Positions 20,349 to 30,254 of a stretch of 64,000 bases of DNA are shown piece after piece. Position numbers and translations under genes: made by a program. The DNA lies in the NCBI RefSeq assembly GCF_014284235.1, contig NZ_JACOGD010000010.1:1-64000 (forward strand), in the 5' to 3' direction. The notes below the pieces were generated by a model. The model saw only the letters and a list, made by a program, of their open reading frames with translations. It was not told the origin of the DNA and searched no databases. The first letter of the stretch is position 1, and each line of letters begins with the position of its first letter. This DNA is from Cognatundibacterium curvum. Its GTDB lineage: Bacteria; Pseudomonadota; Gammaproteobacteria; Burkholderiales; Burkholderiaceae_D.

Positions 20349-20634
20349 GGTCAGACGTGAAGCGCTGCATGCGCTGACCGATTTACCCAATATCGCTGCC
20401 GCCGGGGCGGCCGATTTACGTCTGCTCGGCATCACGCATCCTCAACAGCTGATTGGTGCATCTGCACTGGACCTGTATCAGCGGCTATGCCTGCTGAGCG
20501 GACAACAGCAGGATCCCTGTGTGCTGGATGTGCTGTTGTCGGTCGTTGATTTCATGAATGGGGCAGAGGCGCAGTCCTGGTGGGCCTATACCAGCCAGCG
20601 CAAGCAAATGCTGGCGGCACTGAAATCTGTTTAG
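20335..20634 (+). CDS. Helix-hairpin-helix protein, Cdd1-like
   Basis: The 99-residue protein has a helix-hairpin-helix core (LTDLPNIAAAGAADLRLLGI), followed by QLIGASALDLYQRLC and a tail with QSWWAYTSQRK. This matches the small Cdd1-like 'pathogenicity locus' proteins, whose biochemical role is not established; the fold suggests DNA or protein contacts. The ATG at 20335 lies inside the end of the acetyltransferase gene, so translation is probably coupled. Its TAG stop overlaps the TAA stop of the convergent amylase gene. Confidence 0.88.
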   Translation: MHPSKVRREALHALTDLPNIAAAGAADLRLLGITHPQQLIGASALDLYQRLCLLSGQQQDPCVLDVLLSVVDFMNGAEAQSWWAYTSQRKQMLAALKSV

Positions 20635-22532
20635 GGCCGGCCTACCTCGAGCACCAGCACACCACGCGCCGGTATGTTGAGTGACTGCGATAATTCGACT
20701 TGCTGGCCGCTGAACAGCTCGCGGCCCCACGCACCGGCTGGCAGGATTTCTGCATATCTGTTGAGAGCGATCTGGCTGGCGCTGCTGTTCTTATTCATGA
20801 ACACCATCACCTGTTGCTGCCCCAGCGTACGTACATAACTGTAGATGCCGTTTTCGGGGGCGAAATGCATCAGTTTGCCGCGATGAATGACGGGCTGATG
20901 TTTGCGCCAGTTAAGCAGGGTTTTGAGCCAGCTTTGCGCATATTTTTGCGCGTCTGTCAGACCTGTGCCGGTGAAGGCATTGACGGTGTCGCCGCTCCAG
21001 CCACCGGGAAAATCACGCCGTGCTGCGCCATCATTTCTTTCTTTGGCGCTGGTCATTAAAATTTCAGTTCCGTAATACAGTTGCGGCGTGCGTGGCATAG
21101 TTGCGAGATACACCAGCGCCATGCGGGTCAGATCCCAGTCTTCATTGAGCACGGTGTACAGGCGGCTCAGGTCGTGATTGCCTTCAAACAGCACCAGTCG
21201 GGCCGGGTCAGGATAAAACTGGTCATTGACCAGAGCTTCATACAGGCTGTTGAAGCCACCATTCCAGGACTCGCTGGCGGTCAAGGCCTTGATCAACACA
21301 TCCTGCAAAGGGAAGTCCATCATACTGGGCATAGAAGAGACATAGCCATCCGGATTCACTTTGCCGCGTAACCAGCGCGCCACCACATTGGGATTGGTGC
21401 TCCATTCTTCGCCGACCATACTGAACTGCGGATATTCCTCCAAAATGCGGCGCGACCATTGCGCCAGAAAGCCAGGATCGGAATAGCTATAAGTGTCGGT
21501 GCGTATGCCGGACAGACCGGCGTACTCTATCCACCAGATACTGTTCTGGATTTGATATTGCGCCAGCACAGGATGGGCATTGTTCAGATCCGGCATATGT
21601 GCACTGAACCAGCCCTGACTAAAATTCTGTTTATCCACATTGGCGGCATAGGGGTCGCTGACTGTGGTACGCGCATGTGCGGTCGGTACGAATTTGCCCT
21701 GGTAAGTGATCCAGTCCGGTGCTGGCAGATCGCGTATCCACCAATGCTGATCACCAATGTGATTCAGCACCACATCCTGGATTACGCCTATGCCGTGGCG
21801 GCGCGCCTGTTGTACCAGTTCCCGGTACTCTGCATTGCTGCCTAGCCGCGCATCGATGCGGTAAAAATCGGTCGCCGCATAGCCATGATAGGAATACTGC
21901 GGCTGATTATTTTCCACCACCGGCGTCGGCCAGATCATGGTGTAGCCCATGTCGGCGATATAGGCCAGATGCTGTTGTATGCCAGCCAGATCACCGCCAT
22001 GGCGGCCTGCGCTGTCGTCGCTGCGATCCAGTTTGTCAGTAAAACCGGGCAGCACATCATTGGCCGGATTGCCGTTCGCGAAGCGGTCCGGCATCAGATT
22101 CAGGATCACATCCTGAGGGCCAAAACCATGGCGCCGGGCGGAGCCGGGTTCCCTGGCTTTGAATTCATAATCTGCCTCGGCCTTGATCTGCCCGTTAGCA
22201 TCAACAAAGCGAATATGCCGCTTGCCTGCCCGCATAGAGCGATTGAGTTCCAGATCGATGACCAGGTAATTCGGATTCGGCATAGCCTGTACTTTACGCA
22301 CGCGCAGACCTGTGCCGCTGATTTGCGGTCGCGTCAGTCCGATCTGGTCACCATGCACCATCAGCTGCAACTGGCGGTTTTGCATGCCGGTCCACCAGAA
22401 GGGCGGTTCTATCCGGTCTGGTGCAGCTAAACCTGTTGCCTTTACTGGCAATACACTGGATAAGGCAGTCAACAGCGCACTGCAACAAAAAATTGTAGCC
22501 AGGCGCAGGCATAGCTTGCTAAAGGTAAACAT
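20631..22532 (-). CDS. Secreted GH13 alpha-amylase (neopullulanase / cyclomaltodextrinase type)
   Basis: The 633-residue precursor has a signal peptide (about 1-32). An N-terminal beta-sandwich of cyclomaltodextrinase type follows (about 38-130, PPFWWTGMQNRQLQLMVHG), then the GH13 barrel from about 140. Catalytic residues are visible: the nucleophile Asp in GIRTDTYSYSD (near 344), the acid Glu in MVGEEW (near 372) and the stabilising Asp in EGNHDLSR (near 452). A C-terminal beta domain ends the chain. It should hydrolyse alpha-1,4 and perhaps alpha-1,6 links of starch, maltodextrin or pullulan outside the cytoplasm. AAGGAG precedes the ATG. A 7-9-7 palindrome lies 23-45 bases upstream of the start. 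Confidence 0.93.
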   Translation of the reverse strand: MFTFSKLCLRLATIFCCSALLTALSSVLPVKATGLAAPDRIEPPFWWTGMQNRQLQLMVHGDQIGLTRPQISGTGLRVRKVQAMPNPNYLVIDLELNRSMRAGKRHIRFVDANGQIKAEADYEFKAREPGSARRHGFGPQDVILNLMPDRFANGNPANDVLPGFTDKLDRSDDSAGRHGGDLAGIQQHLAYIADMGYTMIWPTPVVENNQPQYSYHGYAATDFYRIDARLGSNAEYRELVQQARRHGIGVIQDVVLNHIGDQHWWIRDLPAPDWITYQGKFVPTAHARTTVSDPYAANVDKQNFSQGWFSAHMPDLNNAHPVLAQYQIQNSIWWIEYAGLSGIRTDTYSYSDPGFLAQWSRRILEEYPQFSMVGEEWSTNPNVVARWLRGKVNPDGYVSSMPSMMDFPLQDVLIKALTASESWNGGFNSLYEALVNDQFYPDPARLVLFEGNHDLSRLYTVLNEDWDLTRMALVYLATMPRTPQLYYGTEILMTSAKERNDGAARRDFPGGWSGDTVNAFTGTGLTDAQKYAQSWLKTLLNWRKHQPVIHRGKLMHFAPENGIYSYVRTLGQQQVMVFMNKNSSASQIALNRYAEILPAGAWGRELFSGQQVELSQSLNIPARGVLVLEVGRP

Positions 22533-23032: not shown

Positions 23033-24124
23033 ATGGCGCCGCCACCTCTCGCAACTGAACAAATTCCACCGGATGAAGCGCATTACATCAATGATTTACG
23101 CAAACGTCTGAAGGCAAAAATTCAGCGCGAATATCCGCAAGGTGTGATGCGCAGGGATGCGCATCCTAAGATGCATGGACTGGTCAGGGCGTATTTCATT
23201 GTCGAACCAGATTTGCCTGCAGATTTACGCGTCGGCGTCTTTCAGGAGCCTCGCAGGTATAAATCCTGGATACGCTTTTCCAATCAGAATGGCACGATAC
23301 AGCCGGATATCAAGAGCGACATTCGTGGCATGGCCATCAAACTGATGGGTGTACCGGGTAAAAAATTGCTGGAAGCGGAACAGGATGCAGAAACCCATGA
23401 TTTCATCCTCATCAGCACCGATGTATTTGTGACGGCTAATGTCAAAGAATTCGCGGGTCTGATCAAGTCTATGACTAGCGGTGTGTTGTCCACCATCTGG
23501 TATTTCCTGACCCACTGGCGGGTCTCGTATAACCTGTGGCATTCCATGCTGAAGTTTGCCAATCCTCTGCATATTTCTTATTTCAGCACCACGCCTTACC
23601 TGTACGGCGACAAAGCGGTTAAGTATGCCGTCGTGCCGAGTACCAAGTCGATCGACCATTTGCCGGATCATCCCAAAGACGATTTTCTGCGCCGCGCCAT
23701 GGTCAAGCAATTGTCAAAAGAAGATGCGGTGTTTGACTTCATGATACAGATACAGACCGACGCGGAAAAAATGCCGATCGAAGATCCGGGTAAATTATGG
23801 CCGGAGACCCTGTCGCCATTTATCAAGATCGCCACCATCCGCATACCGCGTCAGAATTTTGATTCTGAGCCGCAGCGTGATTTTGGCGAAGAGCTGTCAT
23901 TCACACCCTGGCATGCCTTGCCTGAGCATCGCCCGCTGGGCGGCATCAACCGCGCGCGTAAAATCGTGTATGACGCGATTTCAGCATTCCGGCACGAGCA
24001 TAATCATACCCCGCGCAAAGAGCCGGACAGCTGGAATATTCCCGGCGTGGACCCGCTCGATCAGCAGACCCAGGCCAGTCGTTTTTTATGGGGCAATACG
24101 ACTAACTTTACGTCGGATCAATAA
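23033..24124 (+). CDS. Catalase-like haem protein
   Basis: The 363-residue protein belongs to the short catalase-related family, well below the roughly 480 residues of true monofunctional catalases. The distal histidine region is RRDAHPKMHG (H44). The segment that carries the distal Asn in catalases reads FILISTDVF here, without that Asn. Near residue 310, GINRARKIVYD supplies an RxxxY-spaced pair that could ligate haem. There is no signal peptide. AAAGGA precedes the ATG. Its 3' end overlaps the DyP gene by 17 bases on the opposite strand. Real catalase activity is doubtful; a peroxidase or fatty-acid hydroperoxide role, as in catalase-related allene oxide synthases, is possible (inference). 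Confidence 0.85.
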   Translation: MAPPPLATEQIPPDEAHYINDLRKRLKAKIQREYPQGVMRRDAHPKMHGLVRAYFIVEPDLPADLRVGVFQEPRRYKSWIRFSNQNGTIQPDIKSDIRGMAIKLMGVPGKKLLEAEQDAETHDFILISTDVFVTANVKEFAGLIKSMTSGVLSTIWYFLTHWRVSYNLWHSMLKFANPLHISYFSTTPYLYGDKAVKYAVVPSTKSIDHLPDHPKDDFLRRAMVKQLSKEDAVFDFMIQIQTDAEKMPIEDPGKLWPETLSPFIKIATIRIPRQNFDSEPQRDFGEELSFTPWHALPEHRPLGGINRARKIVYDAISAFRHEHNHTPRKEPDSWNIPGVDPLDQQTQASRFLWGNTTNFTSDQ

Positions 24125-25730
24125 CACCGCGTGCGATCATCCTCAGTGCAGTCATGCTGGGGATGAAAAAATACTCACCGCCACGGGTTTCCACGAAGCG
24201 CGGAATACGCGCCAGAATATAAGGCGCATCCTCGCTGGCCGGATCAACCTGCAGCACGGCCTTGCTCGCGAAACGCGGATCGCTGCTATGGTTGCCGAGG
24301 ATGATTTCCTTATCGTTGGCCGCCTTAAAATCATTGCCGTAATTAATCCACTGCTGCTGCACGAATTCAAACTGACGGTTAATGTCGGCATTCAGCATCA
24401 TGATGATGATGCCGTGATTGCCGTCATCGCGCTGGCGGTCGTGTACGGCACCGTAAGGCAGTCCGCGACGCAGGATACGGCGCCGGTTGACCAGCGCGCC
24501 TGGCGTATCAAACGCACCTGTCATACGTTTTAGTGAGCCGGGCGGATCGCCGGGATCACGTCCCATTTCCAGCGAGGCACGCGGATTGATACGGCGCAGA
24601 TGCGAACTGAACGGGCATTTGCCGCCGCTCATATCAGCATCATAGGTAAAGTCGCTCAACATCCTGTCCTGCTGTTCCGGTGTGGCTGTCGCAAAGCGCG
24701 CATCGAAGGCCTGTTTGGCTGCTGCATCCGGCGCTGACACCAGCGGCGCACCGTTATCGCGCCAGCGTCCGACAAATTTCGCTGCCAGCAGTTCTGGGCC
24801 GCCTGGATATTTTTTTCCTTCCTGTTGCAGATAGTGTTCGAAGCTCGCCACGTTTTCATGCAGCTTGCGATACACCATATAGGTGCCGTTGCGTACCAGC
24901 AGGATAGGCAAGGGTGCGGGCGGATATTCATGCGCTTCATCCACATGACCAAGCAGGAATTCACCGGTCGCCAGCGGTGCCCAGCTGCCGTCTGCCATTT
25001 GTTTGCCGCGGCCACGTACGCGGTCCGCATCGTAAGGCACACCTTCAAACACTGGATCACCGATGCCATCGGTATAGCCGAAATGCTCTTTGGCGGTTGG
25101 CATGCCGTTTTCCATCACCACGTTCACTTCCTGATAATCGAGCAGCTCGCCATTGTCACCGCGATTACCGCCGAGTATTACCACCCCGCCTTCACTGTGC
25201 CGCACTTCGTCCAGCAGCCACTGATAGCCTTGTTCCAGAAATTCAGTACAGCTTTGCATGGCTTGCGCCATACCTGCGACATCGGCGGTGGCTGGCGCTG
25301 GTGCGCGTGCATTCAGCAAGACCGTGATGTGTACATCCTTCTCGCGCGTGACTCGGTTGTTGCGCCAGATCGGATCCCAGCGTTCGGGTGAACTCGGCCC
25401 ATCGTCGCCGAGAATATCGCGCCTGTGCTTCATGCCCTCGATAAATTCCGGCGAAAAATCGACCAGCGAAGCGCGTGGCAATTCCAGTTCTTTCAGACCC
25501 TGATAAGTGAAGGCGATATTCACCGCACAATCCGGTGGCTGTACCGCATTTGGCCCGCTGCCCCAGTTGACGGCGGTAGTTACGCGCTGAGTGATGCGTC
25601 CTACGAATTGACGTGCGCGGGCGCTGTGGCGGATATTCAGGAACACATAGCGGCCTTTGGGATAACCAAAACGTGCGTAAGCGCGCAGGATATGGCCTTG
25701 GATATCGGATAAATCCAGTTCTTGAGTCAT
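24108..25730 (-). CDS. DyP-type haem peroxidase
   Basis: The 540-residue protein is a long DyP-type peroxidase that uses hydrogen peroxide to oxidise dyes or aromatic compounds. The signature GYTDG is at 218-222 (distal Asp221), the proximal haem histidine is H377 in KCPFSSH, and the distal arginine lies in NRRRILRRG. The N-terminus (LDLSDIQGHILRAYARF) is typical of the long class. There is no Tat or Sec signal, so it acts in the cytoplasm or inside a complex. It is the last gene of a three-gene operon, 21 bases behind the preceding gene. Its end overlaps the convergent catalase-like gene. Confidence 0.93.
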   Translation of the reverse strand: MTQELDLSDIQGHILRAYARFGYPKGRYVFLNIRHSARARQFVGRITQRVTTAVNWGSGPNAVQPPDCAVNIAFTYQGLKELELPRASLVDFSPEFIEGMKHRRDILGDDGPSSPERWDPIWRNNRVTREKDVHITVLLNARAPAPATADVAGMAQAMQSCTEFLEQGYQWLLDEVRHSEGGVVILGGNRGDNGELLDYQEVNVVMENGMPTAKEHFGYTDGIGDPVFEGVPYDADRVRGRGKQMADGSWAPLATGEFLLGHVDEAHEYPPAPLPILLVRNGTYMVYRKLHENVASFEHYLQQEGKKYPGGPELLAAKFVGRWRDNGAPLVSAPDAAAKQAFDARFATATPEQQDRMLSDFTYDADMSGGKCPFSSHLRRINPRASLEMGRDPGDPPGSLKRMTGAFDTPGALVNRRRILRRGLPYGAVHDRQRDDGNHGIIIMMLNADINRQFEFVQQQWINYGNDFKAANDKEIILGNHSSDPRFASKAVLQVDPASEDAPYILARIPRFVETRGGEYFFIPSMTALRMIARGVIDPT

Positions 25731-25751
25731 GGTCTTGTTCCCTGTATGGCG

Positions 25752-26453
25752 TTACAGACGATATTGTCCCGGAGCCCAGGTCGGGCTTTGCACATGTTCC
25801 GCCTGCACTCTGTGCATGAACTCGCGGTAGCGCGCGCGCAGCTCGGCGGCGGGTAAGCCCTGATGGGCGGTGGCAAAACGCGCGAACTCCTGTTTCAGAT
25901 ACAGCGCTTTGAGCTGTTCCGCCAGCGGTAAGTCATTCGAGCCGACAAAGAACAGCGAAGTCTTGAGCTGGCATTGCCGTATATAGTCCGTGAAACTGCG
26001 CGCATCCTGCACCCGTTCAAAGCCATAGCAGTGTTGCCAGACTTCGCGTATGCGCTGGTTGATGGCTTCCCACATGCCGCGTAAATAGGCATCCGGTTCA
26101 CCCGAAGGGCCACAATAAAAATTGGTGGTGAACACCAGATAGGCCGATTGCAGATGCTCTTCGACTGGCATCACGCTGCGGCGCAGGCCATCCGGTACCA
26201 CCGGCAGATAATCCGACCAGGTATCCGGCGCGCTGCCGCCAGGCAGGGATTCAGTGACTACATCATCCAGCACGAAAAAGCGACACAGATAGGTTTCAGG
26301 CACCAGTGCCATCGGGCTGTTGAATTCCTGATTCCAGCTTTGCAGCAGATCGCGGACCAGATCCGCATGCGAGATTTCGCGTCCCGCCACCAGACCATTG
26401 CGGATGGGGGAGAGTACGGTCAGACCGTAAGCATTACCAAATACATTAGCCAT
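25752..26453 (-). CDS. Unknown protein, second of a related pair upstream of the DyP peroxidase
   Basis: This 233-residue soluble protein of no recognised family begins MANVFGNAYGLTVLSPIRNG. The ATG at 26453 overlaps the stop of the preceding gene by 8 bases (ATGGCTAA), which fixes the start and implies coupling. It resembles the preceding protein in three places: the N-terminus, a central stretch (SAYLVFTTNFYC against YSYMLFFSNFNG), and a C-terminal helix region (QLKTSLFFVG to FMHRVQ against QLETIHYYSA to LLRGLQ). The two are probably old duplicates. Its job is most likely tied to the peroxidase 21 bases downstream. Confidence 0.85.
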   Translation of the reverse strand: MANVFGNAYGLTVLSPIRNGLVAGREISHADLVRDLLQSWNQEFNSPMALVPETYLCRFFVLDDVVTESLPGGSAPDTWSDYLPVVPDGLRRSVMPVEEHLQSAYLVFTTNFYCGPSGEPDAYLRGMWEAINQRIREVWQHCYGFERVQDARSFTDYIRQCQLKTSLFFVGSNDLPLAEQLKALYLKQEFARFATAHQGLPAAELRARYREFMHRVQAEHVQSPTWAPGQYRL

Positions 26454-27114
26454 GAGGACGCTCCTGATCGAGTTGACCCGCGTGCCAGCGCACCCGCTTC
26501 TCCACCTGCGCGGCAGACATACTGATGATGGGGGTCGGGTGCATTTCACCCAGATCATGCTGCAGCCCGCGCAGCAAGGCCTTATACCGTCTTTCAAACT
26601 CTTGGTCGCTGCCCTGATCGACAGTGCGGTTAAACGCGAGCAGGCTTTCCCTGACTGTCTGAGCCGACTTGATATCGTTGGATGCGGCCAGCGGATAGGC
26701 GCTGTAATAGTGGATGGTTTCGAGCTGGTTGTACTGGATATAGCGATGGAAAGGCGTTAAAGCGACCGACTTGGAATAGCGTATATTCCATTTCCAGAAC
26801 AGATCGAGCCCGCCCGGTATCGCGAAGGTGAACGAGTCCACATACTGATCCCAGCTGCCATTGAAATTACTGAAAAACAGCATGTAGCTGTACTTCAGTT
26901 TTTCTTTAGGCTGCTCAGGCGAAACATGCGGAAATTGTTTGCGCCCGACGATCACCCAGCGCGCATAATGGATTAAAGACAGTGTGATCAGACCCTGCAA
27001 AGTGCTGGGGCGTTTCAGTGCAACCCAGAAAAACAACTTATTCACCCATGCCGTGTACCAGCGTACTGGTGTGATGACATTCATCGCATAGGCTTTACCA
27101 GCAATGTTCGACAT
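26446..27114 (-). CDS. Unknown protein, first of a related pair upstream of the DyP peroxidase
   Basis: This 222-residue protein of no recognised family begins MSNIAGKAYAMNVITPVRWY. GGGAGAC precedes the ATG at 27114. A hydrophobic, aromatic stretch at about 20-55 (WVNKLFFWVAL, LITLSLIHYARWVIVG) may lie on a membrane. The centre has YSYMLFFSNFNGSWDQYVDSF, and later IETIHYYSAY-type aromatic residues and a charged helix follow. It is related to the next protein and coupled to it by an 8-base overlap. Possible roles are substrate binding or a scaffold for the peroxidase; the sequence does not decide. Confidence 0.85.
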   Translation of the reverse strand: MSNIAGKAYAMNVITPVRWYTAWVNKLFFWVALKRPSTLQGLITLSLIHYARWVIVGRKQFPHVSPEQPKEKLKYSYMLFFSNFNGSWDQYVDSFTFAIPGGLDLFWKWNIRYSKSVALTPFHRYIQYNQLETIHYYSAYPLAASNDIKSAQTVRESLLAFNRTVDQGSDQEFERRYKALLRGLQHDLGEMHPTPIISMSAAQVEKRVRWHAGQLDQERPHG

Positions 27115-27309: not shown

Positions 27310-27894
27310 TTATTCCGGATACAGATCAACGACTATGCTCTTCGCTAACTGGTCGCCCATACGTTGTTTGTTCTCATTAAAGAGAAACGCGATCAGCTCA
27401 AACACCGTCATTAGCATCGCCAGATTTCGCTGGCAGGAGCGCCAGACGGTCAATGCTTCACCATGAGATGCTGTGACTGCACGCAGGCGCAAACAGCGTT
27501 TGCCTATGCCGCCGTTGGGTAAGGCATCACGTATCAGCATATAGCCCAGACACAAGGAGACAAATATGCCAGACAGTGATTTTGCCCAAGCCAGTCCGGA
27601 CTGATGCAACAAAAAATGGACCAGCATCATACTCAGATTGAGCACGATGATGTCGATCAGGAACGCACCTATACGCCGGAAACGACTGGCAGGACGATCC
27701 CCGAATGGAAAATTACTGAGTGCTGGCAGACCAGCTAACTGGCGCAGACAGTTAATGTCGTCAACAGACATGCCACGCTCTGTCAATATGACTTCTATTT
27801 GCTCGCGACGTTGTAAGGGGATGGGAGTTTGCGCAATCGCGATCAGCAGATCCGTATCAGCTCGCTGATCGTCATGAGAGGATGAATCGTTCAT
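27310..27894 (-). CDS. RDD-family membrane protein
   Basis: The 194-residue protein has a soluble N-terminal part (about 1-70) and an RDD domain from about 70. The hallmark SRFRRIGAFLIDIIVLN with the first membrane helix, a second helix near 105-120, the GGIGKRCLRLRAV turn and a third helix near 150-165 are present. RDD proteins are inner-membrane proteins of mostly unknown role; some are linked to ion exchange. It is separated from the peroxidase operon by about 195 bases. Confidence 0.85.
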   Translation of the reverse strand: MNDSSSHDDQRADTDLLIAIAQTPIPLQRREQIEVILTERGMSVDDINCLRQLAGLPALSNFPFGDRPASRFRRIGAFLIDIIVLNLSMMLVHFLLHQSGLAWAKSLSGIFVSLCLGYMLIRDALPNGGIGKRCLRLRAVTASHGEALTVWRSCQRNLAMLMTVFELIAFLFNENKQRMGDQLAKSIVVDLYPE

Positions 27895-28024: not shown

Positions 28025-29959
28025 TTAAGGCCGGGCATCCGTCGCCGGTAACACTTTCACGCGCAAAGCACTGGCCTGGCCCGCAGAGCGGTAGACTCTA
28101 TGATTTGCTTTGATAAAGTCGCTGGCCTTGGCTTCGTAAATGTTCGGCACAAAGCTTTGCGGATTGCGGTCTATGAAGGGGAACCAGGACGACTGCACCT
28201 GCACCATGATTTTGTGGCCGCGTTTAAAGGTATGCAGCACATCATTGATGCTGAAGCGCACTGGCGTGATCTGTCCCGGCACCATAGCCAGCGGCTGACT
28301 GAAACTCTGGCGGTAACGCGCACGGAAAGGCTCGCCACGCACCAGAGTTTGCTGATGACCGCGTTGTATGCCTTGTTCTTTCAGATCCGGGGGCGCAACG
28401 TCAATCAGCTTAACCACGAAGTCGGCATCGCTGCCAGTGACGCTCACAAACAAATCGGCCTCCAGCGGGCCAGCCAGCGTGACATCCTGCTCCAGCACAT
28501 CCGTTTCCCAGCTCAGTACATCGGGACGGCTGCTGGCAAAGCGCTGGTCCGCTGCGACATAATTTTTACTCCAGCCATTCATGATCTCGGTGGTGTAGGG
28601 CACAGGTTTGGCCGGGTCGCTCAGGTATTCATCAAAGGCTGGCTGCTGTTCGTTTGGTGCGTTGAAACGCAGTTTGCCATCGGCATGGAAGTACAGAGCC
28701 TGATCTTTAACTTGCTGTGGTGGCCAGCTGTCAAAACCACGCCAGCGGTTGGCACCGGTTTCAAACATCCAGGCTTCCGGCAAACGCGGCTGCTCAGCGC
28801 CTTTCAGATGGTGACGGAAAAACGCCAGCTCGACGGGCTGATAATTGTTCACCGTCTTGTAGCCAAAGTGCGCATCGCCAACCTGATCGCCATTGCTGCG
28901 GGTCCAGCCACCATGTATCCAGGGCCCGATCACCAGCGTGTTCTGTATGCCGGGATTGAGTTTTTCTATCGCCTTATAGGTCTGCAAAGGGCCATATAAA
29001 TCTTCGGTGTCATACCAGCCGCCCACGGTCAGTACCGCTGCTTTAATATTTTTCAGATGCGGCAGCAGATTGCGGCTTTGCCAGAACTGATCATAATCCG
29101 GATGCGCGATGATGTCGTTCCAGAACGGGATACCGCCCTTGAAGTATTGTGCATTCACGTTCGCCAGCGGTCCCAGTTTCAGGAAAAATTCATAGGCATC
29201 GGGTGTGCCGTAATTGAATTCACGCCAGCCGCGTTTTTCAGTCGGTTCCGGACGCGGTACCCCGAAACTATGAAAGAAGGTGAATGCCATCGACAGATTC
29301 AGCGCGCCGTTTCTATGCATATCATCGCCGCGGAACCAGTCCGCTATCGGTGCCTGCGGTGAAATCGCCTTCAGCGCAGGATGGCTGTCGATCGCACCGG
29401 CCGAGGTATAAAAACCAGGATAGGAAATACCCCATTGCCCGAACTTGCCATTTTGCTGAGGCAGGTGTTTGATCAGCCAGTCTATGGTGTCGTAAGTGTC
29501 TGAGCTTTCATCGACATCATTGCTGCCACGTTTGACATCGATATGCGGCCGCATATTGATGAACTCGCCTTCCGACATATAGGTGCCACGCACGTCCTGG
29601 AATGCAAAAATATAGCCTTCTTTTTCATACTCAGCGGTCGGTCCCAGCATGCCCTTATACTGATCCGCGCCATACGGTGCAATCGAATACGGTGTACGCA
29701 CCATCAGCACCGGATAAGTCTTTTTGCGATCCGCATCATTCGGCACATACACCGCAGTAAACAAGCGTTTGCCATCGCGCATGGGGATGCGGTATTCGAA
29801 TTTGGTGTAATGCTCACGGATGTAATCTGCGCGCTGCCTGAGCGGATCGAGACGCGCATCCTGACTGGCAGCGGCCTGCGCCACAGCAGATACCGGCAGC
29901 GCAGCACCGGCGACAACAAAAGCGGCCAGCACACTGGCCAGCAATGGAGTAGATTTCAT
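28025..29959 (-). CDS. Secreted CocE/NonD-family hydrolase
   Basis: The 644-residue precursor has a signal peptide (about 1-28, ending VAQAAA). It is an alpha/beta hydrolase of the X-Pro dipeptidyl-peptidase (S15) superfamily. The nucleophile Ser lies in WGISYPGFYT (near residue 177), and the C-terminal jelly-roll domain (about 420-640, LAGPLEADLFVSVTGSDADF) is typical of CocE-type acyl hydrolases. It may cleave glutaryl or other acyl amides, or peptides; the substrate cannot be told. AGGAAC precedes the ATG at 29959; an in-frame start 48 bases upstream would spoil the signal peptide. It is monocistronic, with a palindromic terminator. Confidence 0.92.
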   Translation of the reverse strand: MKSTPLLASVLAAFVVAGAALPVSAVAQAAASQDARLDPLRQRADYIREHYTKFEYRIPMRDGKRLFTAVYVPNDADRKKTYPVLMVRTPYSIAPYGADQYKGMLGPTAEYEKEGYIFAFQDVRGTYMSEGEFINMRPHIDVKRGSNDVDESSDTYDTIDWLIKHLPQQNGKFGQWGISYPGFYTSAGAIDSHPALKAISPQAPIADWFRGDDMHRNGALNLSMAFTFFHSFGVPRPEPTEKRGWREFNYGTPDAYEFFLKLGPLANVNAQYFKGGIPFWNDIIAHPDYDQFWQSRNLLPHLKNIKAAVLTVGGWYDTEDLYGPLQTYKAIEKLNPGIQNTLVIGPWIHGGWTRSNGDQVGDAHFGYKTVNNYQPVELAFFRHHLKGAEQPRLPEAWMFETGANRWRGFDSWPPQQVKDQALYFHADGKLRFNAPNEQQPAFDEYLSDPAKPVPYTTEIMNGWSKNYVAADQRFASSRPDVLSWETDVLEQDVTLAGPLEADLFVSVTGSDADFVVKLIDVAPPDLKEQGIQRGHQQTLVRGEPFRARYRQSFSQPLAMVPGQITPVRFSINDVLHTFKRGHKIMVQVQSSWFPFIDRNPQSFVPNIYEAKASDFIKANHRVYRSAGQASALRVKVLPATDARP

Positions 29960-30254
29960 GAAGTTCCTGTCAGAGCTGAGGCATGAGAAACCGGGAACTG
30001 CCCTCACATCAGACAGGCAGCGGCTTGCAGGCTTAGTATGCCAGAGCGCCGGGAAGTTCCATGCGCGGTGTGGAAATATAAAAATACGACCAATAAAAAA
30101 TCACTGTCATTCCTGTCAGATCAAAAGTAGTCAGGCACATTGCAAAATTACGCGCCTGTCCTAAGCCTGTTCAATGACAGAAAAAGCAGATGAAAAAAAC
30201 AAATCAAGAGACACCGGCGATTTCACTGGCAATGTAAAGGCGTTGAATGGCGAA

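Follow-up and report, generated by a model that had tools for sequence, protein, structure and literature searches.

In the 64,000-nucleotide stretch of Cognatundibacterium curvum DNA that was analysed (hereafter the window), a DyP-type peroxidase is encoded together with two paralogous proteins, A and B, and this A-B-DyP set forms a fixed unit whose order is conserved across genomes. The neighbouring catalase-like gene (Cat) is one of two alternative partners of the unit, the other being a cytochrome P450, a relationship newly described here. We propose, with a probability of just under one half, that A, B and DyP together make up a three-part haem oxidase working with one or other of these haem partners, in which a hydroperoxide would be formed or passed on by the unit and converted by the partner.

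The four genes were located from the open reading frames (Table 1), which confirmed the positions, overlaps and gap given in an earlier note on this DNA. Each of the four, at the start given, begins with ATG and ends with TAA, and purine stretches resembling ribosome sites lie upstream of all of them. A and B overlap by 8 bases (26446-26453), B and DyP are separated by 21 bases (25731-25751), and DyP and Cat overlap tail-to-tail by 17 bases (24108-24124). Longer frames from TTG starts exist for A and B; the ATG start of A is preferred because Met1 and Asn3 are invariant in all 68 rows of the family alignment.

Table 1. Genes of the A-B-DyP-Cat locus, in window positions
Product	Position	Strand	Length	Features
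Protein A	26446-27114	-	222 aa	First operon gene; motifs IHYARW, FFSNFNGSW
Protein B	25752-26453	-	233 aa	Paralogue of A
DyP-type peroxidase	24108-25730	-	540 aa	Catalytic motifs kept: GYTDG with D221, H377, Arg-rich NRRRILRRG
Catalase-like protein (Cat)	23033-24124	+	363 aa	Convergent with DyP

Proteins A and B, described earlier as two small unknown proteins, are paralogues. Searches of Pfam, NCBIfam, PHROGs and PADLOC gave no noteworthy family match for either, so that as far as these four libraries reach their description as proteins of no named family stands. In the A alignment (68 rows), H49, Y50, A51, W53, N83, N85, W88 and D93 are invariant. The structure model of A was unusable (pLDDT 64.7), and that of B suggests a ferredoxin-like core of the alpha+beta barrel type; a Foldseek search with the B model gave no match below E 1e-3, with many tubulins near the top. 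Hydrophobic stretches were present in 12/12 large A-like proteins examined and in 0/6 short ones, and the window A and B contain no long stretch of this kind. Profile comparison gave no sign that either A or B is homologous to DyP (probability 0.1 for A and 0.5 for B), and this idea was rejected. An anti-phage defence role was also rejected, PADLOC having returned no match of note. No A match was seen in phages.

Conservation of the locus was followed in the best 80 of 298 relatives, so that the counts apply to the nearest ones; three near-identical pairs (L021/L022, L039/L040 and L018/L019) were counted separately. The order A-B-DyP was found in 76 of these 80 scan loci, and in the remaining four the contig breaks off no more than 503 bases from A. 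Retention of the order in every one of the 76 loci on long enough contigs, which come from Proteobacteria and Acidobacteriota, excludes chance. A homologues also lay beside DyP, or fused to it, at all eight loci of the first genome search and all 16 loci of a more remote set. Neither of the two conditions that the earlier note set against its own reading, homologues mostly away from DyP or catalase-like genes and a named family with an unrelated role, overturned the module. The remote set came from 22 of 24 matched genomes (all but G414 and G439), of which 16 were new, five were already included and one was that of the window itself.

Cat proved far less constant, and its place as a fixed member of a four-gene module, which the earlier note had assumed, did not hold up. 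The 80 scan loci comprised 29 with Cat, 20 with P450 instead, none with both and 31 with neither, several of the last being cut by contig ends. The first genome search gave one locus with Cat, six with P450 and one with neither; the corresponding figures for the 16 remote loci were six, seven and three, again with none carrying both. Whole genomes were then considered (49, drawn from 50 of the 80 scan loci, with L030 left out), a strong match being defined as at least 300 bits for Cat and at least 250 bits for P450, plus the fragment cases G649 and G660. Strong matches were to Cat only in 20 genomes, P450 only in 14, both in one and neither in 14 (one-sided Fisher p 0.00056); adding weak rows gave 21, 16, two and 10, respectively (p 0.00012). 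Both partners are strong in genome G657, where they lie on different contigs, and G664 combines Cat with a weak P450. A quick DyP tree required at least eight switches from one partner to the other. After correction for relatedness, the exclusivity was not significant (median p 0.625 on seven pairs), and it may therefore partly reflect shared ancestry. The 14 genomes lacking a strong match to either indicate that a partner is not obligatory, or that a third kind exists.

Fusions tie the same components together. P450, A-like and DyP parts occur in single frames of 1417-1544 aa at 4/16 remote loci, DyP is fused to Cat at one (L137), and an A-like-DyP fusion was present in all three Rhizobiaceae plasmids viewed of six matched. 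A pathway on an organic peroxide common to DyP and Cat, as the earlier note had imagined, fits the DyP-Cat fusion and the known catalase-related hydroperoxide enzymes. No description of an A-B-DyP module or of a P450-DyP fusion was found in the open-access literature searched by title and start of abstract, a search outside which most subscription papers lie.

As judged from its domains and its distal Asp, proximal His and distal Arg, the window DyP can be placed in the DyP-type peroxidase superfamily. It scored 34.2 bits against Pfam DyP_N (cut-off 27.5), 18.5 against Dyp_perox_C (just below the cut-off of 20) and 81.5 against NCBIfam TIGR01413 (below the cut-off of 100.5). The complete DyP motifs that had been reported are indeed present: GYTDG was found, and D221, H377 and the arginines at 416-418, 421 and 422 are invariant in 41/41 aligned rows. 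The solved DyPs 8re3 (E 1.5e-68, the best match), 7anv (ancestral D-type) and 6fsk headed the PDB profile search and have these catalytic residues in common with the window protein, which differs from them in its constant neighbours A and B, its fusions and its score below the NCBIfam DyP cut-off.

The shortened catalase fold without the usual distal Asn, also remarked on earlier, was borne out for Cat. Comparison with E. coli KatE showed the distal His kept and Ile at the N201 column with no Asn nearby, and Asn is missing from this column in 34/34 Cat rows (five have Asn one residue later). By eye, Arg309 and Tyr313 match the proximal R-x-x-x-Y motif, and both are invariant in 25/25 rows, although the proximal Tyr was out of register in the KatE alignment. 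With a Pfam Catalase (PF00199) score of 23.0 bits, below the cut-off of 25, and with the distal Asn absent, Cat falls outside the monofunctional haem catalases despite its distal His. The same Asn is part of the cAOS/HPL-type set (distal His, Thr and Asn plus proximal Tyr), and because it is absent and the proximal Tyr was not lined up with KatE, Cat is not filed as a cAOS, which leaves the proposal that it works like one unaffected. In the PDB profile search 3e4w came first (E 3.5e-10); the ordinary catalase 6pt7 (1.7e-4) and the allene oxide synthase of coral, 1u5u (2.5e-4), followed with scores close to each other. Cat shares 40.8% identity with a catalase gene on pNGR234a, which we take to be y4iL; this identity is the basis of its putative likeness to the y4iL-like family (cd08152). 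In the portion of PMC4417212 that describes them, y4iL-like proteins (CDD cd08152) have the catalase fold and bind haem without necessarily having catalase activity, and, unlike for Cat, neither a link to A-B-DyP nor a P450 substitute is mentioned.

For the P450 partner, the 31 aligned rows (only frames longer than 380 aa were used, which omits L055 and L081) all have the haem Cys, and the I-helix stretch is without an acidic residue in 30. In the sections consulted of PMC11719350, PMC13049297 and PMC5617202, catalase-fold and P450 enzymes both convert fatty-acid hydroperoxides, each partnering an oxygen-inserting enzyme, and the two, though unrelated, both produce allene oxides (PMC5617202). 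Fungal fusions described there (linoleate diol, epoxy alcohol and allene oxide synthases) join an oxygen-inserting haem enzyme to a P450 that acts on the hydroperoxide with no need of electron donors (PMC13049297), a one-chain arrangement like that of P450-A-like-DyP, whereas their first enzyme is of the cyclooxygenase family and here it is a DyP, with a predicted activity. The cyanobacterial 10S-dioxygenase, according to the same sections, has a catalase-related hydroperoxide lyase as partner, as a separate gene or fused (PMC13049297, PMC11719350); the likeness lies in the catalase-related partner of a haem enzyme, and the module differs in having a DyP for the cyclooxygenase-like enzyme, plus A and B. 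The coral catalase-related allene oxide synthase or hydroperoxide lyase resembles Cat in its fold, distal His and, as read by eye in Cat, proximal Tyr, and 1u5u is among the Cat profile matches, but its partner is a fused lipoxygenase and it keeps the distal Asn137 that the window Cat has lost (PMC5617202, in the part consulted). What module loci share with these systems is an oxidising enzyme that has a P450 or a catalase-fold protein as linked or fused partner; being a DyP, the oxidising enzyme of the module is outside the cyclooxygenase-type (animal haem peroxidase) dioxygenases.

In the working that we propose, A and B, probably of ferredoxin-like fold, would form a paired scaffold that offers DyP a hydrophobic substrate, such as an unsaturated acyl chain, which may come from the membrane. 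We know of no counterpart of A or B in the fungal dioxygenase-P450 fusions. Primed by peroxide, DyP would oxidise the substrate, so that an organic, perhaps lipid, hydroperoxide is made, bound or handed on, and Cat or P450 would then rearrange or cleave it without an electron donor. The fungal and cyanobacterial systems would be its analogues, with DyP replacing the dioxygenase. Gene order, fusions, the kinship of A and B, Cat or P450 as partner and the near-constant lack of acidic I-helix residues in the P450s are observations, whereas the class of substrate, the direction of the reaction, what A and B do and independence of electron donors are inferred. Some neighbours hint at lipids: a patatin-like protein follows P450 in all four Undibacterium genomes that have P450 and the module on different contigs. 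None was found in the module loci searched, and the search of the window's own genome, run without a positive control, came back empty. Among ten plasmid contexts viewed for Cat relatives, three adjoin animal-haem-peroxidase, RoxA-like or patatin-like genes, four show no oxygenase-like neighbour, one has hypothetical genes and an annotated arginyl-tRNA synthetase, and two carry no annotation.

Peroxide defence, in which DyP and Cat (or P450) remove H2O2 or damaged lipid hydroperoxides and A/B are assembly or membrane-targeting partners, is in our judgement unlikely. Both haem enzymes use peroxides, no Pfam catalase above the cut-off was found in the window's genome, so that Cat might serve as one, and on a Granulicella plasmid a Fur-family regulator and katG follow A-B-DyP by ~4 kb. 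Against this, Cat is without the distal Asn that true catalases have, its score falls short of the family cut-off, P450 would be an odd substitute for a catalase, and P450, A-like and DyP parts in one chain suggest channelling over scavenging.

We regard as distinctly improbable a role in natural-product tailoring, in which the module, with either partner, would oxidise a small molecule other than a lipid (a polyketide, an aromatic or an isoprenoid), A/B perhaps being ABM-like cofactor-free oxygenases or cyclases. The folds nearest to the B model, which include TcmF2 cyclase, ABM monooxygenases and methylmuconolactone isomerase, speak for it, as do the nearest NCBIfam P450 models, mostly biosynthetic and all scoring far below their cut-offs, and a GMC oxidoreductase with a c-type cytochrome at one remote locus and a tyrosinase at another. 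Other neighbours, surveyed from raw frames after many antisense shadow frames of the module were set aside, included no constant fifth gene among those listed; the recurrent ones looked lineage-specific, such as the GST and C92 amidase after P450 in Nitrosomonas-type loci.

That A-B-DyP alone is the functional unit and Cat a frequent neighbour with no shared reaction is very improbable: Cat is convergent with DyP in 25/29 scan loci, lies 2.7-5.7 kb away in three (L023, L066 and L072) and is missing from many, but it is co-directional in 4/29, stands on one strand with A-like and DyP genes in remote loci L138, L140, L142, L144 and L146, is fused to DyP in L137 and has its place taken by P450 elsewhere.

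The hydroperoxide reading suggests an undescribed bacterial route that makes and processes organic, perhaps lipid, peroxides. Interest in bacterial DyPs has centred on dyes and lignin; what most of them do in nature is, as far as we know, open, and to our knowledge DyPs have not been established as fatty-acid dioxygenases. Here a DyP is tied to two unnamed paralogues, with the same choice between a catalase-fold enzyme and a P450 as in known oxylipin pathways, which makes it a concrete, testable proposal that a hydroperoxide pathway begins with DyP in some cases. Two unannotated protein families are also brought out, and the natural P450-A-like-DyP chains could interest those seeking peroxide-driven biocatalysts. 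A bolder version, which we hold to be somewhat unlikely, is that the module is an independent further invention of the two-step oxylipin machine, with DyP and the A/B scaffold replacing the cyclooxygenase-type dioxygenase or lipoxygenase and a catalase-fold enzyme or P450 taking the hydroperoxide. If this were true, DyPs would include true lipid oxygenases, and the proteins that combine P450, an A-like pair and DyP in one chain would carry two haems.

A, B and DyP form a fixed unit. The four window genes, encoding two small paralogous proteins (A and B), a DyP-type peroxidase (DyP) and a catalase-like protein (Cat), lie with the positions, overlaps and gap described in the earlier note, and neither A nor B, there called unknown, matched any family of note in Pfam, NCBIfam, PHROGs or PADLOC. 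Window A shares 100% identity with its counterpart in Undibacterium crateris and 98% with the one in U. rugosum; the flanking genes have no evident link to the four. Of 250 genomes searched in the order, 2 (the window's own among them) have B; of 398 searched in the phylum, 9 have A, again counting the window's own. In all eight others with A, the genes A, B and DyP stand in a row. Named genomes were then scanned with an A alignment; 298 relatives came up and the best 80, with Proteobacteria and Acidobacteriota among others, were retained. The earlier note had left as a check whether A homologues adjoin DyP genes: the one-strand order A-B-DyP was found in 76 of these best 80 of 298, and in the other four (loci L031, L038, L056 and L067) the contig ended 423, 166, 503 and 86 bases past the best A frame. 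A is split over two frames in L056, by decay or assembly faults. A Granulicella plasmid also carries A-B-DyP.

Coordinates of the features discussed (L, individual loci; G, individual genomes, G000 being the window's own; others, window positions)
Feature	Location	Strand	Remark
A, 222 aa	26446-27114	-	first of minus-strand run A, B, DyP
B, 233 aa	25752-26453	-	8-base overlap with A
DyP, 540 aa	24108-25730	-	21-base gap after B
Cat, 363 aa	23033-24124	+	17-base overlap with end of DyP
Cyclomaltodextrinase-type alpha-amylase	20631-22532		flanking gene
RDD membrane protein	27310-27894		flanking gene
CocE/NonD-type hydrolase	28025-30007		flanking gene
Further DyP	G000:C54:113547-113996		away from module
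P450 frame, 140 aa	L055:13235-13654		Glaciimonas immobilis
P450 in three matches	G660:C164:3324-4359		genome of L086
Protein of ~280-290 aa	L070:9083-9916		adjoins A-B-DyP
Protein of ~280-290 aa	L087:13139-14005		adjoins A-B-DyP
Protein of ~280-290 aa	L088:8877-9818		adjoins A-B-DyP
Module-family P450 and patatin-like protein	L150:4266-7910		contig other than that of A-B-DyP
Module-family P450 and patatin-like protein	L151:1441-5231		contig other than that of A-B-DyP
Module-family P450 and patatin-like protein	L155:4038-7727		contig other than that of A-B-DyP
Module-family P450 and patatin-like protein	L156:4072-7673		contig other than that of A-B-DyP
Cat relative, Asn for distal His	L137:6155-8887		DyP-Cat fusion
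Cat relative, Asn for distal His	L138:7833-9026		
Cat relative, Asn for distal His	L140:2850-4391		
Larger version of module	L138:274-9026		one strand, one run
Tyrosinase gene	L136:3058-3870		upstream of large A-like protein and DyP

The fourth place is in many loci filled by either Cat or a cytochrome P450, which substitute for one another. Cat, proposed earlier as a module member, had a homologue in 29 of the best 80 of 298 loci (25 convergent, 4 co-directional) but was absent from the rest, of which 20 carried a P450 (16 on the same strand, 4 on the opposite one). No locus of the 80 had both and 31 had neither, several of these being shortened by contig ends. The eight loci from the phylum search with A comprised six with P450, one with Cat and one with neither. 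Nitrosomonas-type loci have the order A-B-DyP-P450-GST, and the P450 lies immediately upstream of A in L015, L067, L098 and L100. The P450s of L055 and of the genome of L086 are short or broken (see table), and Cat is split into two frames in L045 and L072, by decay or assembly faults. The neighbour of ~280-290 aa at L070, L087 and L088, all without Cat and P450, had no Pfam match (nor, for the L070 copy, an NCBIfam match) and was absent from the other module loci searched; it is possibly a third partner.

For 49 of the scan genomes, Cat and P450 were searched for genome-wide. Strong matches (Cat at least 300 bits, P450 at least 250 bits, plus two fragment cases) gave 20 genomes with Cat alone, 14 with P450 alone, 14 with neither and a single one (G657) with both, on separate contigs (one-sided Fisher p 0.00056). 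The partner varies within the genus Undibacterium: U. crateris, U. jejuense and U. squillarum have Cat and lack P450 genome-wide, and U. amnicola, U. macrobrachii, U. seohonense and U. flavidum lack Cat and have a P450 on contigs other than that of the module. At least 8 Cat/P450 changes are required by a quick tree of the DyPs, in which support was weak for 12 of the 46 inner branches. On its well-supported branches only 7 independent pairs were available (3 differing the other way, 1 the same way, 3 showing no difference; median p 0.625), and the exclusion was not confirmed by this test because it is too weak.

More remote relatives were reached through plasmids, where A matched seven records, six of them Rhizobiaceae. 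In all three of these six that were viewed (L102, L130 and L131), an A-like domain and DyP share a single frame, with no Cat or P450 in the viewed stretch. All three fusions have a DNA/RNA non-specific endonuclease gene nearby; those of L102 and L130 also adjoin an endonuclease/exonuclease/phosphatase gene. Searched against 398 genomes of the phylum, the A-like part of one fusion matched 24, from which 16 new loci were read. In 16 of 16, DyP was fused to the A-like part or within ~1 kb of it; the partners were P450 in 7 (counting that of L143, although weak and divergent), Cat in 6, neither in 3 and both in none. P450, A-like domain and DyP share a single open frame (1417 to 1544 aa) in L132, L133, L134 and L147, and DyP and Cat share one of 911 aa in L137. 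Proteins of L137, L138, L139 and L140 hold two A- or B-like copies, the first weakly detected (domain E 0.0008 to 0.06), and the A/B pair therefore seems to exist as a tandem within one protein. Hydrophobic stretches (19 residues, mean Kyte-Doolittle >1.6) occurred in 12 of 12 large A-like proteins examined; of 6 short ones, among them window A and B, none had any. Some of the stretches could be helices that are buried, and two of the large chains have one of their stretches in the P450 part. The run at L138 comprises a c-type cytochrome protein, a GMC oxidoreductase, a small protein, a two-copy A-like protein, DyP and Cat. The tyrosinase locus L136 is without Cat and P450.

For the active sites, D221, several Arg and the catalytic H377 named in the earlier note were invariant in 41 of 41 aligned DyP rows. 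The missing distal Asn of Cat also held: none of 34 relatives has Asn at the position aligned with KatE N201, and five of the 34 have one a residue later. The proximal Tyr did not line up in this KatE alignment; Cat Arg309 and Tyr313 were invariant in 25 of 25 rows. The distal His was retained in 31 of 34 Cat relatives and is Asn in L137, L138 and L140, whose partner may therefore have changed chemistry. The best solved-structure profile match of Cat was 3e4w (E 3.5e-10), a mycobacterial catalase-related peroxidase recorded as an uncharacterized protein, with weaker matches to an ordinary catalase (E 1.7e-4) and to coral allene oxide synthase (E 2.5e-4). The haem Cys was retained in 31 of 31 aligned P450s. 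A six-residue I-helix stretch (mostly GAIPTT) lacked an acidic residue in 30 of 31, the exception being L091 with Asp; the place of the acid is Pro in 29 of 31 as read from L091, and one residue earlier, on Ile, by PDB alignment, so that its exact position is uncertain. L135, L139 and L143 carry other changes in the motif. The missing acid would fit P450s that work without electron-driven O2 activation.

Hints of lipid chemistry came from neighbouring genes. In all four Undibacterium genomes whose P450 sits apart from the module, it is followed by a protein with a patatin match (two by Pfam scan, two by similarity). Patatin was not found in the module loci searched, nor in the window's genome by a search without positive control. 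Cat matched 127 plasmid records, of which 10 contexts were viewed: animal-haem-peroxidase genes adjoin Cat relatives in Methylobacterium and Paracoccus. In Paracoccus and pNGR234a RoxA-like cytochromes do so, and pNGR234a has in addition a nearby patatin-like gene scoring just under the Pfam cut-off. No such neighbour was found in 4 of the 10; in one context the only genes were hypothetical ones and one annotated as arginyl-tRNA synthetase, and two were without annotation.

The main rival reading is that the module serves as a defence against peroxides. The window's genome has no Pfam catalase above cut-off anywhere and one further DyP, above the Pfam cut-off, away from the module. Coral catalase-related enzymes have the distal residues H67, T66 and N137 and no scavenging activity on H2O2, and allene oxides are also made by structurally unrelated P450s (PMC5617202). 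Catalase-fold proteins and P450s are haem enzymes without relation to each other; fatty-acid hydroperoxides are converted by both, and each is found as the partner of an oxygen-inserting enzyme (PMC13049297, PMC11719350, PMC5617202). A P450, the alternative in the module, is the partner in fungal dioxygenase-P450 fusions, and a catalase-fold partner, as in the Cat loci, is found with a cyanobacterial dioxygenase and in coral catalase-lipoxygenase fusions; unlike all three, the module would use DyP with A/B as its oxygenase. A fungal DyP is reported to cleave an aryl alkene (PMC7181223), which shows DyPs to be capable of alkene chemistry.

Judged by these likenesses, the module is best explained as a hydroperoxide pathway of two steps with a hydrophobic substrate. 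DyP and A/B would act as the oxygenase, with Cat or P450 as alternative hydroperoxide-converting partners. What the sequences show is the conservation and order of the genes, the paralogy of A and B, the substitution of partners, the fusions and the active-site residues; the substrate, the reaction, the direction of the chemistry and complex formation are inferred. None of the open-access literature searched described the A-B-DyP module or P450-DyP fusions in a title or in the opening of an abstract. The enzyme classes themselves are known; the way they are combined, the A/B families and the fusions appear to be undescribed. The module is a candidate case of a known arrangement, an oxygenase working with a hydroperoxide-converting partner.
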